In this document: in pieces, positions 22,722 through 59,261 of the stretch | How the letters are laid out: every line of letters starts with the position of its first letter | How positions within the stretch are numbered: the stretch's first letter is position 1 | NCBI RefSeq assembly: GCF_001456355.1 | Contig: NZ_CP010271.1 | Location: forward strand, 2,170,001-2,234,000 | Direction: 5' to 3' | Length of the DNA: 64,000 nucleotides | Source: Mycobacteroides saopaulense | Lineage (GTDB): Bacteria; Actinomycetota; Actinomycetes; Mycobacteriales; Mycobacteriaceae | Notes under the pieces: generated by a model | What the model saw: only the letters and a program-made list of their open reading frames with translations | What the model was told of the DNA's origin: nothing | Databases searched by the model: none | Program-made: the position numbers and the translations under genes

Positions 22722-22737
22722 CGTGTTACGACACATC

Positions 22738-22800
22738 AACACAGGAACTATCAGCCATCAGTGGCGGTTCGGGACAAGCCCCGGCGAGATCCATCGCGCG
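22738..22800 (-). promoter_or_regulatory. Fluoride riboswitch (crcB motif)
   Basis: Read on the minus strand from 22800, the RNA has GCGAUGGAUCUCGC, then CCGAACCGCC, then GGCUGAUAGUUCCUG, the blocks of the crcB/fluoride aptamer. The loop GGAUCU can pair with AGUUCC (one mismatch) as the expected pseudoknot, and GCC...GGC closes the inner stem. A TATATT -10 element (22811-22806) places transcription start at about 22799, exactly at the aptamer's 5' end. The two crcB genes follow immediately. Confidence 0.82.
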
Positions 22801-22823
22801 TGATGAATATAGCGCGAGGTGTG

Positions 22824-37399: not shown

Positions 37400-39132
37400 C
37401 AGAACAGGAAATACCTTTGCGCCATAGGCAGTTCGGCGGCGGGCTGCTCCTGCCACACCTCTCCGTCGATGCGCACGGTGAACGTGTCGGGGTCGACCCG
37501 GATATCCGGCATCGCGTCGTTCAACGGCAGGTCTGCCTTGCCGCGGTGACGAACATTGCGGGTGGGAACCAGCCTGCGCCGGAGCGCGAGCCGGGCGGCC
37601 AGGTCGTCCTCGATGGCCGTCGGCGAGACGAAATGCACGGCCAGCCCAGGGGCCACATTGGGCATGGCACCGAACATGGGTCGCGGGAGCACCGGCTGCG
37701 GGGTGGGGATGGACGCGTTGGCATCACCCATGGCCGCCCAGGCGATGGCGCCACCCTTGATGACCGCATGCGGCCGCACGCCGAAGAACGCCGGCTCCCA
37801 CAGCACCAGATCGGCCAACTTGCCGACCTCGACCGAACCCAGCTCGTGGTCGATACCGTGCGTGATCGCCGGGCAGATGGTGTATTTGGCGACGTACCGG
37901 CGCACCCGATTGTTGTCGTTGCCGTGGGCACCGGCGGGGTCCCCCGGCAGTGCACCGCGGCGTTTCTTCATGACATGCGCGGTCTGCCAGGTGCGCATCA
38001 CCACTTCGCCGATGCGTCCCATGGCCTGGCTGTCACTGCCGATCATCGAGATGGCACCGATGTCGTGCAGCAGATCCTCGGCGGCGATGGTGGAAGGGCG
38101 AATCCTGCTCTCCGCGAAGGCGAGATCCTCGGGCACGGCGGCATTGAGATGGTGGCAGACCATCAACATGTCGAGGTGCTCGTCCAGGGTGTTGACGGTG
38201 TGCGGGCGCGTCGGATTGGTCGAGCTGGGCATCACATTCGGATGGCTTGCGACGGTGATGATGTCCGGCGCATGTCCGCCGCCCGCGCCCTCGGTGTGAT
38301 AGGCGTGGATGGCGCGTCCGGCGATCGCGTCCAGGGTGCCTTCGACAAAGCCCGTTTCGTTGAGGGTGTCCGAGTGCAGGGCGACCTGGACATCGGCCTC
38401 GTCCGCCACGCGAAGGCATGCGTCGATCACGGCGGGCGTGGTGCCCCAGTCCTCGTGCAGTTTGAAACCTGCAGCACCGCCCCGCAATTGCTCCCACATG
38501 GATTCGGGATTGACGGTGTTGCCCTTACCCAGCAGCAGCACGTTCACCGGCCACCTGTCGAGCGCCTGCAGCATTCGGCCCAGATGCCACGCTCCGGGAG
38601 TGACGGTGGTCGCCTTGCTGCCCTCGGCGGGGCCGGTGCCGCCGCCGATCATGGTGGTGATTCCGCCGCCGATGGCTTCGTCGACCAACTGCGGACAGAT
38701 GAAATGGACGTGGCAGTCGATGCCGCCCGCCGTGACGATCCGGTCATTGCCGGCGATGATCTCGGTGGACGGGCCCACAACCAGCTGTGGATGGACCCCG
38801 TCCATGATGTCCGGATTGCCGGCCTTGCCGATCCCGACGATGCGTCCATCGCGAATGCCGATGTCGGCCTTGATGATTCCCCAGTAGTCGATGATGACGG
38901 CGCCGGTGATGACGGTGTCCGGCGCACCTTCGGCGCGGGTTACGCGACTTTGTCCCATCGATTCGCGCAGCACCTTGCCGCCGCCGAACACCGCCTCCTC
39001 GCCGGCCAAGCCGGGACCGCCGCATCGATCTTCGGTGATCTCGATGAGCAGATCGGTATCGGCCAGCCGGATGCGGTCCCCGGTCGTGGGGCCGTAGAGC
39101 TTGGCGTAATGCGCTCGGGTCAGTCTGGTCAT
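37399..39132 (-). CDS. ureC: Urease alpha subunit (catalytic)
   Basis: A 577-residue amidohydrolase hydrolysing urea to ammonia and carbamate. Nickel ligands appear in [14 protein letters not shown] (HxH), the carbamylated-Lys motif [25 protein letters not shown] and [14 protein letters not shown]; the mobile flap is [20 protein letters not shown] with the active-site His. Length is standard. ATG overlaps the ureB stop. Confidence 0.96.
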
Positions 39133-39760: not shown

Positions 39761-39906
39761 AAGGGGCGATCCTGCCACGATCCGGGCGGCCAGGCACTTT
39801 CACGGCCCGCCGACGGCCTGTGGCGGGTTTTGCCGTGCGGCCTTGATCTTGAATGCGAGAATCCACCGGAACTGGCTGTGTGCAGGAGCGATCAGGAGGG
39901 TGCACG

Positions 39907-40662
39907 ATGCGGTATGCGATGACGTTGGGGTGTGTGGTGTCGGCGGCGGTGCTGCTGACGGGGTGCAGTCAACCCAGCGAGGGGATAAAACCGGTGGCGG
40001 CACCGTCCACCACCGCCGCCGACATGCCGATGACCGCAGGCACGTCGGCGCCGGCATCCGTCCCGGCCACCACCAAGGCGCCTGCACCGCCGCCGCTGGT
40101 GGTCACACCGGACAAGGTCGAGACGATCCTGAGCTCGCGCGCCGAGGTCGGGAAGATTCTGGGAACGACGCTGGAGTACGAGAACAATCGATCGGCACCG
40201 CCAACGGACGCGGTGAGCGGTCCACCGGACTGTGTGAATCTGGACAATCCGCGAGCCGGTCAACTGGGATCGGAGTGGACCACATACCGCTGGAACTATT
40301 ACCGCGAGACCAAGGACAGCAGCTCGTACATCGTGGGTCAGGTGGCCGTCCTGTATCCCACACGCGAGGAGGCTTCCGCGGCCTTCACTCGGTCATATCC
40401 GCTGTCCATCTCGAAAACATGCGTTGACGCGGGGATTTCCATGTTGAACGACAAGTGGAAGATCAGCAGCATCACCAAGGTCACCGACACTGCGGCCACA
40501 TGGGCTCAGCTTCAGATCGCAGAGGGCACGCCCTGGCACTGCTTCTTCGACTTCCGTAACAAGAACAACGTGCTCTTCGGGGCGTACCTGTGCCAGTTCG
40601 GTGATGGTGTGCCCGGGGTTACGACCATTGCCGACCGGATCGCGGCGTGGATTCCGGAATGA
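39907..40662 (+). CDS. PknH_C-like sensor-domain lipoprotein 1
   Basis: A 251-residue lipoprotein: signal VVSAAVLLTGC (lipidated Cys near residue 20), a Thr/Pro/Ala-rich linker, then a sensor-like domain starting VGKILGTTLEYE. Shared family marks are LGSEWTTYRWNYYRETKDS, VGQVAVLYP and the end NKNNVLFGAYLCQFGDGVP. Such domains occur outside the membrane in PknH and in LppH/LpqA-type lipoproteins; ligand unknown. First of four tandem paralogues, divergent from urease. Confidence 0.82.
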   Translation: MRYAMTLGCVVSAAVLLTGCSQPSEGIKPVAAPSTTAADMPMTAGTSAPASVPATTKAPAPPPLVVTPDKVETILSSRAEVGKILGTTLEYENNRSAPPTDAVSGPPDCVNLDNPRAGQLGSEWTTYRWNYYRETKDSSSYIVGQVAVLYPTREEASAAFTRSYPLSISKTCVDAGISMLNDKWKISSITKVTDTAATWAQLQIAEGTPWHCFFDFRNKNNVLFGAYLCQFGDGVPGVTTIADRIAAWIPE

Positions 40663-41402
40663 AGGGGATGAAGGTGACTAGCACATCGGTGTATCGGAAG
40701 GCCGTGGTCGCGGTGTGTGCGGCAATCGTCCTGACCGGGTGTTCGATCTTCGGGGGTGGTCAGAAGGATCCGGCGACTTCTGAGTCGCCCGCGCCGTCGG
40801 GCACCCCGAAGACGTCGACCACCGTCTCGGAGAACGCGATCAGTCCGGATACCGCCAACTCGCTGATTGTCCCCAAGGACGACGTCGGCGAACTCATCGG
40901 ATCCACGCTGGGCTACGAGGGGAAGTCTTCGGATCCACAATCGTCGACCGTCGAGGGCAAGGAGTCGTGCCGGGCTCTCCTGGTGCCTTTGACGACCGAC
41001 ATCGGCAGCACGTGGACCACCTATCGAAACGTGTGGTACCAGGAATCCAAGGAAACCTACGATCACTCGATCGGGCAGCGTGTCTTGTTATACCCAGCCA
41101 AAGATGCCGCGGCGGAAACCTATTCGAAGGAGTTCCCGGTCACGGTCCGCGAGTGTTCAGGTGAGGACATCAAGACCGACACGGCGACCTGGCGCGTAAC
41201 CGTGCGTGAGGCGTCGCAAGACCGGGTGCAATGGGTGCTTGAGCAGATCGAAGATGGTCAGCCCAACGGATGGCGCTGTAACAAGGCGGCACGCATCATC
41301 GACAACGTGCTGTTCTCGGCGACCGTCTGCCAGCGCGGTAATGGCGTACCCGCGATGAAGGCCATCATGGACAGGATGGCGGCGGCCACCCAGCCCAAGT
41401 AA
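40659..41402 (+). CDS. PknH_C-like sensor-domain lipoprotein 2
   Basis: A 247-residue paralogue. Lipobox IVLTGC, then a Ser/Thr/Pro-rich linker and the domain (DDVGELIGSTLGYEG; IGSTWTTYRNVWYQESKETY; GWRCNKAARIIDNVLFSATV; CQRGNGVPAMKAIMDRMAA). ATG 40659 overlaps the previous stop (ATGA); an ATG at 40668 is an alternative with a GAAGGGG too close to it. Probably co-transcribed with lipoprotein 1. Confidence 0.8.
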   Translation: MKGMKVTSTSVYRKAVVAVCAAIVLTGCSIFGGGQKDPATSESPAPSGTPKTSTTVSENAISPDTANSLIVPKDDVGELIGSTLGYEGKSSDPQSSTVEGKESCRALLVPLTTDIGSTWTTYRNVWYQESKETYDHSIGQRVLLYPAKDAAAETYSKEFPVTVRECSGEDIKTDTATWRVTVREASQDRVQWVLEQIEDGQPNGWRCNKAARIIDNVLFSATVCQRGNGVPAMKAIMDRMAAATQPK

Positions 41403-41501
41403 GCCAGCCGTGGCGAGGGGCGTGTAACACTGGGCGCGAGCAACCCGATGTAGCCATGATTTGGGTCGATGCGGGTCTGAAATCGACAGGGAGGGATTTG
41501 G

Positions 41502-42269
41502 ATGCGTTACGTATTGACGGCCGGATGGCTTGGTCTGGCTGCGATGCTCGCGGTGAGTTGTGGCACCGACTCGGGAGGTATCAAACCGATCCCGGTCGGT
41601 GCGACCGCGACATCGGGCGCGCAGGCCGATTCGCAGGACGCGGTGTCCCCGACAAGCCCCAAGACCACCGCACCGTCCGTCACGACGTCGCTGGAACCGC
41701 CTCCGCCGGTGATTGTGACCCCGGAGAAGGCCGAAGCCACACTGATCTCTGCCGATGACGTCGGCAAGATCGTGGGCTCGCCGCTGACCTTCGAGGTGAA
41801 GAGCTCGACTCCGGAGGATTCGCCGAGAAGCGGCAAATGTGAGGCGCTGGCCGGACCGTTCACTGACGTTCTGGGTGACGAATGGACGACGTATCGGCAC
41901 GTCGTACAAAAGGAGTCAAAGGAGCGGTACGACCACATTGTGTGGCAGGCCGTGGTGCTGTTCGCCGACGCGAAGACCGCTGCCGACCAGATGAAAAAGG
42001 CATTCCCGGACTCGCTGAAGAGCTGTGTCGACACCGAGCAGCCGACCGGCGACCTCGACTGGCGGGTGGAGAGTTTCTCTGCCGAGGGGAAGACGGTGAG
42101 ATGGGTCGAACAGCAGCTCAACGATGGCAAACCATCGGCGTGGAGATGCTTTTTCGAGTACCGGGCGAAGAACAATGTGGTGTTTGGTACCCGCCTGTGC
42201 CAAGCGGGCAATGGAGCGCCGGCGGTGACCGCGATCGTCGACCGCATGGCCGAATGGATCCCGGCATGA
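41502..42269 (+). CDS. PknH_C-like sensor-domain lipoprotein 3
   Basis: A 255-residue paralogue, closest to number 1 (GGIKPIPVGATAT; PPPPVIVTPEKAEATLISAD; LGDEWTTYRHVVQKESKERY; KNNVVFGTRLCQAGNGAPAV; VDRMAEWIPA). The lipobox is the less typical AVSC. ATG 41502 follows GGGAGGG. It starts 99 bp after the second gene. Confidence 0.82.
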   Translation: MRYVLTAGWLGLAAMLAVSCGTDSGGIKPIPVGATATSGAQADSQDAVSPTSPKTTAPSVTTSLEPPPPVIVTPEKAEATLISADDVGKIVGSPLTFEVKSSTPEDSPRSGKCEALAGPFTDVLGDEWTTYRHVVQKESKERYDHIVWQAVVLFADAKTAADQMKKAFPDSLKSCVDTEQPTGDLDWRVESFSAEGKTVRWVEQQLNDGKPSAWRCFFEYRAKNNVVFGTRLCQAGNGAPAVTAIVDRMAEWIPA

Positions 42270-43209: not shown

Positions 43210-43620
43210 TCACAGGTTCTGCAGTCGCACCTGTCCCCGCGCGATCGTGCGGTTGTCGCCGTCGGTGATGGTGACGAGCCACAGCTGCTGACGACGACCC
43301 CGGTGGATCGGCGTCGATGTCGCGGTGAGCGTGCCCGCCGAGATCGCACGCAGGAAGTCGGTGTTGTTGTTGACGCCGACGACCGCGCTCTCCTCCCCCA
43401 GCACGTTGGCCCGCCAGATGTATGCGGACACGCTCGCCACGCTCTCGACCACCGAGCAGTACACGCCACCGTGCACGATCCCGTTGGGTTGCAACAGATT
43501 CTCGGTGACAGTCAGGCTGGCGGAGACACCGTCGGGCGTCAGCGAGGTGTATTCGAGTCCCACGAGCTTGTCGAAGGGTGCGGTGGGCATCGTGCTGAGG
43601 TGCTCCGGCGTGTCTGGCAT
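43210..43620 (-). CDS. PaaI-family hotdog thioesterase (Rv1847-type)
   Basis: A 136-residue hotdog-fold protein: LLQPNGIVHGGVYCSVVESVAS is the PaaI/YbgC-like active-site helix (NGxxHGG motif), followed by VNNNTDFLRAISAGTLTATS and RQQLWLVTITDGDNRTIARGQ. It likely hydrolyses an acyl- or aroyl-CoA. Ortholog of Rv1847 by position between urease and blaI. ATG 43620 is six bases after TATGAA and may be leaderless. Confidence 0.87.
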   Translation of the reverse strand: MPDTPEHLSTMPTAPFDKLVGLEYTSLTPDGVSASLTVTENLLQPNGIVHGGVYCSVVESVASVSAYIWRANVLGEESAVVGVNNNTDFLRAISAGTLTATSTPIHRGRRQQLWLVTITDGDNRTIARGQVRLQNL

Positions 43621-43640
43621 TTGATGTTCATATCAAACGA

Positions 43641-43759
43641 AGAAGGACCCCATGTGCCGAGGCACATGGGGTCCTTCCTTCGAGTGGACCGGGGGTCTCT
43701 GCAGCCCTCAGGACTCCGGCGCGGTCCGGGTGTCTGGTCGCGCTGTAGCGCGTTCGACG
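43641..43759 (-). ncRNA. mrsI: IdeR-controlled small RNA, MrsI candidate
   Basis: A transcript of about 119 nt is predicted on the minus strand. The promoter has TTGCAA (43794-43789), a 17-bp spacer and TATCCT (43771-43766), putting the start near 43759. The end is a 16-bp perfect hairpin (43643-43658 with 43661-43676) followed by TTCTTCGTTT. A small CGCGCT/AGCGCG hairpin (43739-43752) lies near the 5' end. No reading frame fits. The iron-responsive sRNA MrsI of M. tuberculosis lies between Rv1846c (blaI) and Rv1847; this one lies between the same orthologues, and an IdeR box covers the spacer. Identity to MrsI is inferred from position and regulation, not alignment. Confidence 0.72.
43643..43676 (-). 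terminator. Strong intrinsic terminator of the small RNA
   Basis: A 16-bp perfect stem with a two-base loop (centre near 43659) is followed on the minus strand by a T-rich tract, making it the strongest intrinsic-terminator candidate in this part of the window. Confidence 0.75.
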
Positions 43760-43765
43760 TGACTA

Positions 43766-43794
43766 AGGATAGGCAAGGCTGCCCTAAATTGCAA
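43766..43794 (-). promoter_or_regulatory. sRNA promoter with IdeR box in the spacer
   Basis: The box at 43769-43787 reads ATAGGCAAGGCTGCCCTAA on the plus strand, close to the iron-box consensus TTAGGTTAGGCTAACCTAA in its conserved outer and central positions. It fills the gap between TTGCAA and TATCCT, so iron-loaded IdeR would block transcription. The -35 end lies inside the 3' end of the FhuF-like gene. Confidence 0.7.
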
Positions 43795-44542
43795 GGGCCT
43801 TATGGCGGACCGGCAATCCGAGTGTCATGAACCGGTCCAAGATCGCTTGCCCGCGACGCATCCCGTCGGTCTCGCTGGACCGTGCCAGCAGCGGAACGTG
43901 AGTTGCCGCGCCCACCACTGTCGAGCCGACCAGCTGCCACATCTGGCCGATTTCCATTGCGCCGGAGCTGATCTGCGTCAGGCGGGTGAACAATGGAGCC
44001 AGCGCGCGATGGCACCGGTGCGCGGTCCACGCGGCGAGCGCGTCCTCGCCGGGAAAGACCACCACCTGCTCGCGGTCGCGGTCCGGGTCGTCGGGCAGTA
44101 CTCGTAGGGTCGGGTCGACAACGCCGGCCCAGTCGATGCAGCCCTCGGAGTCGAAGTAGACCCATAGGTTCCCCAGCCCCGGATCCCAGGCGCGGCCCTC
44201 CAGGACCACCAAGGCAACCAGGCGTCCGACCACGGTGTGCACCAGAGCGTCGGCGAGTTGGTGGACGGCAATCGAGTCGCTGCCGGTCTCCTTGACGGCG
44301 CGGGCGTACATCTGCTCAAGCCGATCAGTATTGAGTGCGCGCGCCAGCGGCCACCATCGGCGGCGGCCTACGTCGGACATCATGGCGACGCCGTAGGCCC
44401 GCGGGCACTCCGGATACAGCTCGCGAAGCCGGGCGCTCGATTCGTGCAGCGGCAGTGATTGGCGGATGGACATCCCGGCGATCAGCGGATCGTCGGCGAT
44501 GAGACTCCTGGTCGAAGAGCATCGGTCGATGGCCAGTGTCAC
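43784..44542 (-). CDS. FhuF-like protein, iron-regulated (tentative)
   Basis: A 252-residue protein whose central part (VVGRLVALVVLEGRAWDPG; NLWVYFDSEGCIDWAGVVDP) loosely resembles FhuF/IucC-type siderophore-related domains. The C-terminal Cys-rich [2Fe-2S] motif of true FhuF reductases is missing, so ferric-reductase activity is doubtful. An IdeR box 30 bp upstream supports a role in iron acquisition. It has no counterpart at this position in M. tuberculosis, where blaI and the thioesterase gene are adjacent. Other identity possible. Confidence 0.55.
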   Translation of the reverse strand: MTLAIDRCSSTRSLIADDPLIAGMSIRQSLPLHESSARLRELYPECPRAYGVAMMSDVGRRRWWPLARALNTDRLEQMYARAVKETGSDSIAVHQLADALVHTVVGRLVALVVLEGRAWDPGLGNLWVYFDSEGCIDWAGVVDPTLRVLPDDPDRDREQVVVFPGEDALAAWTAHRCHRALAPLFTRLTQISSGAMEIGQMWQLVGSTVVGAATHVPLLARSSETDGMRRGQAILDRFMTLGLPVRHKALAI

Positions 44543-44571: not shown

Positions 44572-44590
44572 ATAGGTTAGCCTAACCACA
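44572..44590 (-). promoter_or_regulatory. IdeR iron box upstream of the FhuF-like gene
   Basis: TAGGTTAGCCTAACC (44573-44587) lies within a 19-bp site at 44572-44590 matching TTAGGTTAGCCTAACCTAA at 16 positions. It is 30 bp upstream of the FhuF-like start, where bound IdeR would block transcription in iron-replete cells. Confidence 0.85.
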
Positions 44591-44785: not shown

Positions 44786-45193
44786 ATGTTCGGAATGGCA
44801 CGCCTGGGCGAACTTGAACGCGCGGTGATGGACCACCTGTGGTCCTCTCCCGAGCCTCAGACTGTGCGTCAGGTCCACGAGGCGCTGTCGGCACGACGTG
44901 ACCTCGCCTATACAACTGTGATGACCGTGTTGCAGCGCCTTGCGAAGAAGGATCTGGTCGTTCAGCACCGCGATGACCGCGCGCATCGCTACGCCCCGGT
45001 CCACGGTCGCGACGAGCTGGTGGCGGGGCTGATGGTCGACGCATTGGCGCAGGCCAACAACTCTGGTGCCCGCGAGGCGGCATTGGTGCACTTCGTGGAG
45101 CGCGTCGGCCCCGATGAGGCCGATGCGCTGCGTCGCGCCCTGGCCGATCTCGAGGCGAAAGATCCATCTGCTGGCGGTCGCCCCACCGCGTAA
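44786..45193 (+). CDS. blaI: BlaI/MecI family transcriptional repressor
   Basis: A 135-residue winged-helix repressor nearly collinear with M. tuberculosis BlaI (Rv1846c): LGELERAVMDHLWSSPEPQT, LAYTTVMTVLQRLAKKDLVV, AHRYAPVHGRDELVAGLMVD and VERVGPDEADALRRALADLE. It represses beta-lactamase and ATP-synthase-linked genes in M. tuberculosis until cleaved after beta-lactam exposure. ATG 44786 has GGAGG ten bases upstream. Followed at 14 bp by the M56 peptidase gene. Confidence 0.93.
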   Translation: MFGMARLGELERAVMDHLWSSPEPQTVRQVHEALSARRDLAYTTVMTVLQRLAKKDLVVQHRDDRAHRYAPVHGRDELVAGLMVDALAQANNSGAREAALVHFVERVGPDEADALRRALADLEAKDPSAGGRPTA

Positions 45194-45207: not shown

Positions 45208-46173
45208 GTGTCCGCCCTGGCGTTCGCGATTCTCGCGCTGCTGCTGACCGGTCCTGTACCGGCGTTGCTCGCGCGTGCGCGCTGGCCGTACCGCGCACCA
45301 CGCGCCGCCATGGTTTTGTGGCAGGCCATTGCGGTGGCTGCGGTTCTCTCGGCCTTCAGCTCCGGGTTGGCGATAGCGAGCCGGCTTCTGGTCCCCGGGC
45401 CCGATGGTCACCCGACGGCCACGATTACCGGCGAAATCGACCGTCTCGGTTGGGGTTTGTGGCTGCTCTACGTCACCGTGTTCGCGATCACGATTCTGAT
45501 CGGTATTCGGCTGATGGTCTCGGTGATTCGGGTAGGTGTACGTACCCGACGCCGCCGGGCACGCCACCGTGCCATCGTCGACCTGCTCGATCACAAGCGC
45601 TACTGCGAGAACTGGCGTGGCGGCTACGACATCCATCGCCGGCGCGATCACGACCTGCGTGTCCTGGAAGTCGACGAACCCCTGGCGTACTGCTTACCGG
45701 GTGTGCGCAGCCGGGTGGTCGTCAGCGAGGGAACGCTGAGCACGTTGGGCCACAACGAGGTGGCGGCAATCGTCGCGCACGAACGCGCCCATCTGCGCGC
45801 CCGCCACGACCTGGTGTTGGAGGCGTTCACTGCCGTGCACGACGCTTTCCCGGTCATCGTGCGTAGCAGGAATGCGCTGGACGCGGTCAAGCTGCTCGTG
45901 GAACTTCTTGCCGACGACGCGGCGGTCCGGACCGCGGGCCCGACTCCCCTGGCTCGTGCACTCGTCGCGTGTGCGGGTGGCCCGACGCCGGTCGGCGCCA
46001 TGGCCGCCGGTGGTCCCACCACGCTCATCCGGGTCCGCCGTTTGGGCGGCAGCGGGAACAGCCTCCTACTCTCCTGCAGCGCCTACACCGCCGCCGCCGC
46101 AATCCTGGTGGTGCCGACGCTGGCGGTTGTCATCCCGTGGTTCACCGAACTACAGCGCCTGTTCAGTCAGTAA
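45208..46173 (+). CDS. BlaR1-like M56 family membrane metallopeptidase
   Basis: A 321-residue membrane peptidase with helices near residues 1-20, 35-58, 85-108 and 290-312. The zinc motif is AAIVAHERAHLRARHD (HExxH type), with the third-ligand region VELLADDAA. Unlike staphylococcal BlaR1 (about 600 residues), no penicillin-binding sensor domain is attached, as in Rv1845c. It probably cleaves BlaI; how beta-lactam stress is sensed is open. GTG 45208 is the only start that gives the first helix. Confidence 0.87.
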   Translation: MSALAFAILALLLTGPVPALLARARWPYRAPRAAMVLWQAIAVAAVLSAFSSGLAIASRLLVPGPDGHPTATITGEIDRLGWGLWLLYVTVFAITILIGIRLMVSVIRVGVRTRRRRARHRAIVDLLDHKRYCENWRGGYDIHRRRDHDLRVLEVDEPLAYCLPGVRSRVVVSEGTLSTLGHNEVAAIVAHERAHLRARHDLVLEAFTAVHDAFPVIVRSRNALDAVKLLVELLADDAAVRTAGPTPLARALVACAGGPTPVGAMAAGGPTTLIRVRRLGGSGNSLLLSCSAYTAAAAILVVPTLAVVIPWFTELQRLFSQ

Positions 46174-58984: not shown

Positions 58985-59198
58985 CCCGTCGCGGGCGCCT
59001 GAGAGATTCGGTCGTCTTACCCGGTGAATTTCCAGGTAAGAGCCTTTCCCCGTCGGCGGGTGCTCCGGCTATCTACCGGATCACCACTTTTCAGAGGCAT
59101 CGGGGCCGAGAGCGGTTCGGGGGCCTGAGAGATTGACGGAGAGGTGTTGCTCCTTCGGCGGCCATGACTGGCGATCATGACACTCTCCCGCCCACGGG
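58985..59198 (-). promoter_or_regulatory. Tandem glycine riboswitch
   Basis: On the minus strand aptamer 1 reads GGGAGAGUGU (near 59190), GCCGCCGAAGGAGCAA, and AAUCUCUCAGGC (59134-59123). Aptamer 2 has CCGACGGGGAAAGGCUC and GAAUCUCUCAGGC (near 59009-58997). Two aptamers with the diagnostic CUCUCAGG end are typical of cooperative glycine riboswitches before gcv genes. A promoter candidate TAAACT (59216-59211) with CTGAAC 17 bp upstream gives a start near 59204. gcvP begins 70 nt after aptamer 2. Confidence 0.9.
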
Positions 59199-59261
59199 CG
59201 ATGCCCGACCAGTTTACGCGAGTCGACCGCCTGGTTCAGACCGGCGGGAATGAGCGGCGGA

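Follow-up and report, generated by a model that had tools for sequence, protein, structure and literature searches.

The stretch analysed here is a 64,000-nt piece of the Mycobacteroides saopaulense genome (contig NZ_CP010271.1, positions 2,170,001 to 2,234,000 of the forward strand), hereafter the window; all positions refer to it. On its minus strand, a gene for an Rv1847-type hotdog thioesterase is preceded by a short promoter-to-terminator unit without a reading frame, which abuts a gene for a protein that relatives' records call 'iron reductase', and a BlaI-type repressor gene diverges from the group (Table 1). A first-pass annotation of the window took the flanking genes for the orthologues of Rv1846c and Rv1847 of M. 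tuberculosis, and protein family (PF03965 for the former; PF03061 and TIGR00369 for the latter) as well as gene order bear this out. The unit between them probably encodes a small regulatory RNA that is switched on at iron shortage, and we are confident that it is the gene of MrsI, an IdeR-repressed, loop-pairing, iron-sparing RNA.

Table 1. Features of the predicted MrsI locus and its neighbours, in window coordinates.
Feature	Position	Strand	Remarks and basis
-35 hexamer TTGCAA	43789..43794	minus	within 3' end of iron-reductase gene; sequence
-10 hexamer TATCCT	43766..43771	minus	17-nt spacer to -35; sequence
IdeR-type iron box TTAGGGCAGCCTTGCCTAT	43769..43787	minus	13/19 against IdeR consensus
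Predicted MrsI RNA, ~125 nt	about 43760 to about 43636	minus	start 6 nt past -10; predicted ends
P1 stem, 5' arm GGACCG	43722..43727	minus	fold and covariation
P2 stem, 5' arm GUCCUG	43709..43714	minus	fold; compensatory changes in relatives
Apical loop AGGGCUG, 7 nt, presumed seed	43702..43708	minus	loop conservation and bfrA leader complement
P2 stem, 3' arm CAG-A-GAC	43695..43701	minus	one-base bulge; fold and structure test
P1 stem, 3' arm CGGUCC	43686..43691	minus	fold and covariation
Intrinsic terminator hairpin	43640..43679	minus	terminator scan and covariation in relatives
Hotdog thioesterase, Rv1847-type	43210..43620	minus	downstream of RNA; PF03061, TIGR00369
'Iron reductase' (relatives' name in NCBI records)	43784..44542	minus	without Pfam or NCBIfam match
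Second iron box, near-palindromic	44572..44590	minus	upstream of iron-reductase gene; 15/19 by eye against IdeR consensus
BlaI-type repressor, Rv1846c-type	44786..45193	plus	PF03965
M48/M56-type membrane peptidase, BlaR-like	45208..46173	plus	PF01435 over cut-off, PF05569 just below

The promoter elements are as the first-pass annotation had read them, but its term 'near-consensus' was generous: by eye, 8 of the 12 hexamer positions agree with the E. coli consensus, and a 9-of-12 promoter scan did not list the TTGCAA/TATCCT promoter. The iron box TTAGGGCAGCCTTGCCTAT, by contrast, does span the promoter spacer as claimed. All boxes were scored out of 19 positions against the IdeR consensus; the 13/19 of this box was reached by one of 336 shuffles of the 110-nt upstream regions of relatives. 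Both the terminator hairpin and its T-rich tail were found again, although the scan gives 18 pairs rather than the 16 first reported and the tail is interrupted. It was also correct that the RNA lacks a reading frame: none begins ahead of the terminator, ATG and GTG being confined to the terminator stem and TTG absent (by eye). The RNA is strongly folded: 43636-43766 reaches -68.2 kcal/mol, whereas its shuffles average -45.5 (z -5.77) and none of 200 did as well. No Rfam family reached its gathering score at the element, where sub-threshold hairpin matches were the only ones, and the present work provides a covariance model, R1, for this RNA. Built from 36 sequences, R1 finds one strong copy in the source genome (a single contig of 4,649,175 bases), at 94.6 bits, with a runner-up at 28.7.

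The RNA comprises an outer stem P1, an inner stem P2 that carries the 7-nt loop AGGGCUG, and then the terminator. This structure was tested on the window's own locus and those of 25 relatives. These 26 thioesterase-anchored loci were picked with a looser, loop-containing pattern from the best 30 thioesterase loci; the four not used are L006, L010, L025 and L033. A model match lies elsewhere in G030, the genome of L025. Standard pairs filled 95.9% of cells, compared with 88.8% after shuffling and 34-47% with slid partners, and both-sided changes were seen at 15 of 28 pairs against 8.2 in shuffles; none of 500 shuffles reached either value. The inner stem swaps its pairs among relatives, for example from CUG/CAG to CAG/CUG. 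Because these 26 loci were picked by a loop-containing pattern, conservation of the loop was scored on all 73 order-level R1 matches, placed by alignment without requiring the loop, R1 itself having been built from loop-bearing sequences. The loop is AGGGCUG in 72 of them and UGGGCUG in one, and GGGCUG is present in all 73. We conclude that both the RNA structure and the loop are under selection. This also bears on the idea that the element is a small-protein mRNA, or a chance terminator without RNA function, as might be suggested by two of the three frames across this GC-rich stretch being free of stop codons, which we ascribe to chance. With no start codon ahead of the terminator, a terminator length that varies freely among relatives, compensatory changes in the stems and R1 matches in 223 of 248 genomes of the genus, the probability of this idea is next to negligible.

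Within the order, R1 matched 73 of 397 genomes in 10 of 74 genera, all of them in the family of the source organism; in genus g27 (2.2-2.9 Mb), no match was found in any of the nine listed genomes. An exact search of named species genomes with a 20-letter core pattern, whose core letters are thus fixed by construction, gave at least 116 stretches, with Mycobacterium, Mycolicibacterium, Mycobacteroides, Mycolicibacillus, Gordonia, Williamsia, Nocardia, Rhodococcus ruber and Prescottella among the matches listed. The closest named locus compared, that of Mycobacteroides chelonae S00154, is 95.6% identical to the window over 205 nt of the RNA region, and its BlaI, thioesterase and iron-reductase proteins are 99%, 98% and 96% identical. 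An iron box accompanies the RNA almost everywhere, scoring at least 12/19 in 112 of 113 listed pattern loci with enough upstream sequence and at least 13/19 in 72 of the 73 order-level model matches. Three genomes of the genus (G123, G133 and G252) carry two R1 matches rather than one.

The gene neighbourhood is conserved on the downstream side as well, and it raises the question of whether the RNA serves its neighbours in cis. In 107 of the 116 listed pattern loci, across several genera, a thioesterase gene follows the RNA on the same strand, no more than 700 nt away; of the 98 loci whose downstream sequence exceeds 900 nt, 97 have it (the exception is L100). Together with the merely ~20 nt between terminator and thioesterase start codon in the window, this would suit a 5' leader or attenuator that controls the thioesterase gene by termination. 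However, at three loci (L008, L014 and L023) the RNA ends ~490 nt ahead of the thioesterase match, and a -10-like TGTARAM motif within 100 nt upstream of the thioesterase, present in 27 of 30 loci but not in the window, fits a separate leaderless promoter. Moreover, a loop that stays fixed while its stem varies, and that matches bfrA leaders as described below, suggests a role in trans, and a review describes MrsI as an independent transcript. We therefore consider an attenuator quite improbable.

On the upstream side, BlaI is divergent in 78 of the 81 listed loci with more than 2 kb of upstream sequence, and 33 of these 81 have an iron-reductase gene as the immediate upstream neighbour of the RNA, in the same orientation. 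In the window this gene, whose 3' end (43784) runs into the promoter, has an iron box of its own, so the RNA could derive chiefly from the 3' end of the iron-reductase mRNA, by read-through and processing. We judge this highly improbable, as the RNA is present in the other 48 of the 81 loci, where no iron-reductase gene was found upstream, and its own box is kept in nearly all pattern loci. The first-pass annotation had noted the overlap of the promoter with an 'inserted' iron-regulated gene; the overlap is real, but the insertion is not upheld. We rejected the gene as a private insertion of this lineage, since two Nocardia species (N. higoensis and N. shimofusensis) and Rhodococcus ruber also have it next to the RNA, and the simplest reading of this distribution would be that of an old neighbour lost from other lineages.

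The locus agrees with published descriptions of MrsI (ncRv11846 of M. tuberculosis and M. smegmatis) in the features set out below, and the identification made in the first-pass annotation is thus supported. MrsI lies in the Rv1846c-Rv1847 gap (PMC8628891, PMC11188477), and a table in PMC8628891 puts it at 2096766-2096867 on the plus strand of the M. tuberculosis genome; reviews give it ~100 nt, a predicted intrinsic terminator, a 7-nt apical loop, a 6-nt seed and bfrA as a target. Likewise, the element lies between the BlaI and Rv1847 genes on the Rv1847 strand (orthology being judged by family and order), has an IdeR box at its promoter, and specifies a structured RNA of about that size with a terminator, a 7-nt loop and a presumed 6-nt seed whose complement occurs in bfrA leaders, here those of relatives. 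The likeness is to MrsI as described in reviews. In contrast to MrsI as described, the window RNA is predicted to be ~20-25 nt longer, an iron-reductase gene abuts its promoter, and bfrA is absent from the genome; hypF and fprA are among the other genes ascribed to MrsI control. RyhB, PrrF, FsrA and IsrR share the expected outline, being made at low iron and turning iron-using proteins down, but they are analogues and not one family with MrsI. Conservation in Nocardiaceae and Gordoniaceae is likewise reported for the 6C/B11 sRNA of actinobacteria (PMC12395582), but this RNA has C-rich loops rather than a G-rich AGGGCUG, and the passages available do not describe iron regulation for it.

In the literature retrieved on MrsI or ncRv11846 together with IdeR, bfrA, Gordonia, Rhodococcus or M. 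abscessus, of which partial texts were covered, MrsI is nowhere placed outside mycobacteria, and a search by the loop letters returned nothing related. The range found here is thus wider than the published passages describe. According to PMC10470900, orthologues of some listed sRNAs, MrsI included, were seen in an M. abscessus transcriptomics study. This locus may therefore have been noted already. We take the study meant there to be PMC4974804. The locus is not named in the passages of PMC4974804 available to us. The kind of RNA is already known; new are its wider range, its apparent co-loss with a target site and the missing main target.

The link to bfrA was examined in genomes with a bfrA called by TIGR00754 over its cut-off, taking one bfrA per genome and the 70 nt before it as leader. 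CAGCCC, the complement of GGGCUG, occurs in 26 of 30 bfrA leaders of RNA-bearing genomes (shuffle mean 1.5, maximum 7). It is the commonest 6-mer in these leaders, compared with 18 for the ribosome-binding GGAGTG, and the next best complement to a 6-mer of the RNA, found in 8 of the 30, overlaps the same loop. After 26 more RNA-bearing genomes were added, the count stood at 45 of 56. By comparison, among the RNA-less genomes, 18 of 21 have bfrA and the site is present in 2 of these 18 leaders; one of the two genomes, G181, is 93% complete in 450 contigs, and its RNA may be missed. Complementarity length alone was dropped as a mark of bfrA as target, as shuffled leaders do about equally well. 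The place of the longest complement, which falls on the loop in 34 of the 56 leaders against 13%, is alone unusual.

Loss of the RNA was followed in 21 genomes, namely 20 of the 25 genus genomes without an R1 match and G470. At a looser threshold, weak matches appeared in 14 of the 21, with E 0.0024 at best; we read two of them as remnants and the others as chance. The two, in the 3.27-Mb genomes G095 and G134, lie at the expected locus, with the core and the iron box recognisable (the box being intact in one genome but changed in the second), the terminator hairpin lost (by eye), the inner stem damaged and the loop changed in one. CAGCCC is absent from the bfrA leaders of both. In a bfrA tree of 48 genomes the RNA state changes five times, and 13 of the 18 RNA-less genomes fall in one group, 12 of them with strong support.

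Several observations weigh against the MrsI explanation. Among RNA-bearing genomes, 11 of 56 have no CAGCCC ahead of bfrA, and of the 33 RNA-bearing genomes outside the genus, nine have a bfrA that passes the cut-off, the site being present in two of these nine leaders. The longest exact complement between leader and RNA is about as long in shuffled bfrA leaders. The co-loss is counted over five changes, with the site following the RNA in ~3 of 5 independent pairs, none opposite and ~2 equal; the sign test gives a median p of 0.25, the pairs being too few for significance. The source genome itself has no bacterioferritin over the TIGR00754 cut-off. Finally, a search of this genome for the seed complement followed by GGAG and a start codon gave 18 matches compared with 26 for the reversed pattern, that is, no enrichment, and 12 of the 18 precede frames of less than 100 aa.

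Of 59 sampled genomes of the genus, 58 have bfrA, the sole absence being the source genome, and bfrA over the cut-off was found in none of ten relatives chosen as likely Mycobacteroides by BlaI scores. The RNA region of seven of these ten is 88-92% identical to that of the window, and the loop is unchanged in all seven. The source genome has four ferritin-family genes, which we read as two ferritins and two Dps-like proteins; CAGCCC was not found in the stretch read for the two ferritin genes, and within the window no long frame was found to have a seed site ahead of it. As the species has no bfrA, its predicted targets cannot include bfrA, and other targets must presumably matter here. Repression of iron proteins in this species would thus run without the best known target. 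Since no bfrA over the cut-off was found in the source genome, in the ten likely Mycobacteroides or in most of the 33 RNA carriers outside the genus, the RNA is, in the genomes compared, wider in range than its best known target.

In the mechanism that we propose, IdeR with iron would occupy the box across the promoter when iron is plentiful and block transcription. As iron falls, RNA polymerase would make an RNA of ~125 nt ending at the hairpin, and its conserved stem would present the loop AGGGCUG for pairing with CAGCCC, in many cases with a U or A after it, in the leaders of target mRNAs. Such pairing would lower target expression and thereby spare iron. On balance, we favour the view that MrsI, rather than being special to mycobacteria, is an ancient iron-sparing RNA shared by the Mycobacterium/Nocardia/Gordonia/Rhodococcus family as a whole, whose loop is frozen while its regulon can change. 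On this view, bfrA serves as a target chiefly in the main Mycobacterium lineages, and the bfrA-less Mycobacteroides branch keeps the loop letter for letter through other, undescribed targets. This view predicts that the frozen loop must have other targets in bfrA-less species.

As for the neighbouring genes, the iron-reductase protein has 1472 relatives at E <= 0.001 and shares 96% identity with a cluster that takes its name from Mycobacteroides abscessus. The ~20-nt gap between terminator and thioesterase start (43618-43640) holds TTTGATATGAACATCAAA, which is a 6-bp inverted repeat and may serve as a -10, and it lacks the TGTAGACA-like motif seen at most other mycobacterial loci. Between the thioesterase gene and the urease genes, the plus strand carries a tandem run of three lipoprotein-like genes with PknH_C domains (39853-42266), followed by another frame that reaches 43078. 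An Rfam 5_ureB_sRNA match of 92 bits (38676-38970, plus strand) lies antisense inside the apparent urease alpha-subunit gene and probably reflects coding conservation rather than an RNA. Elsewhere in the window, a Fluoride riboswitch (22735-22807, minus strand) immediately precedes two frames for small membrane proteins resembling a crcB pair, and a Glycine riboswitch (59103-59200, minus strand) lies upstream of a frame that reads as the glycine dehydrogenase gcvP.
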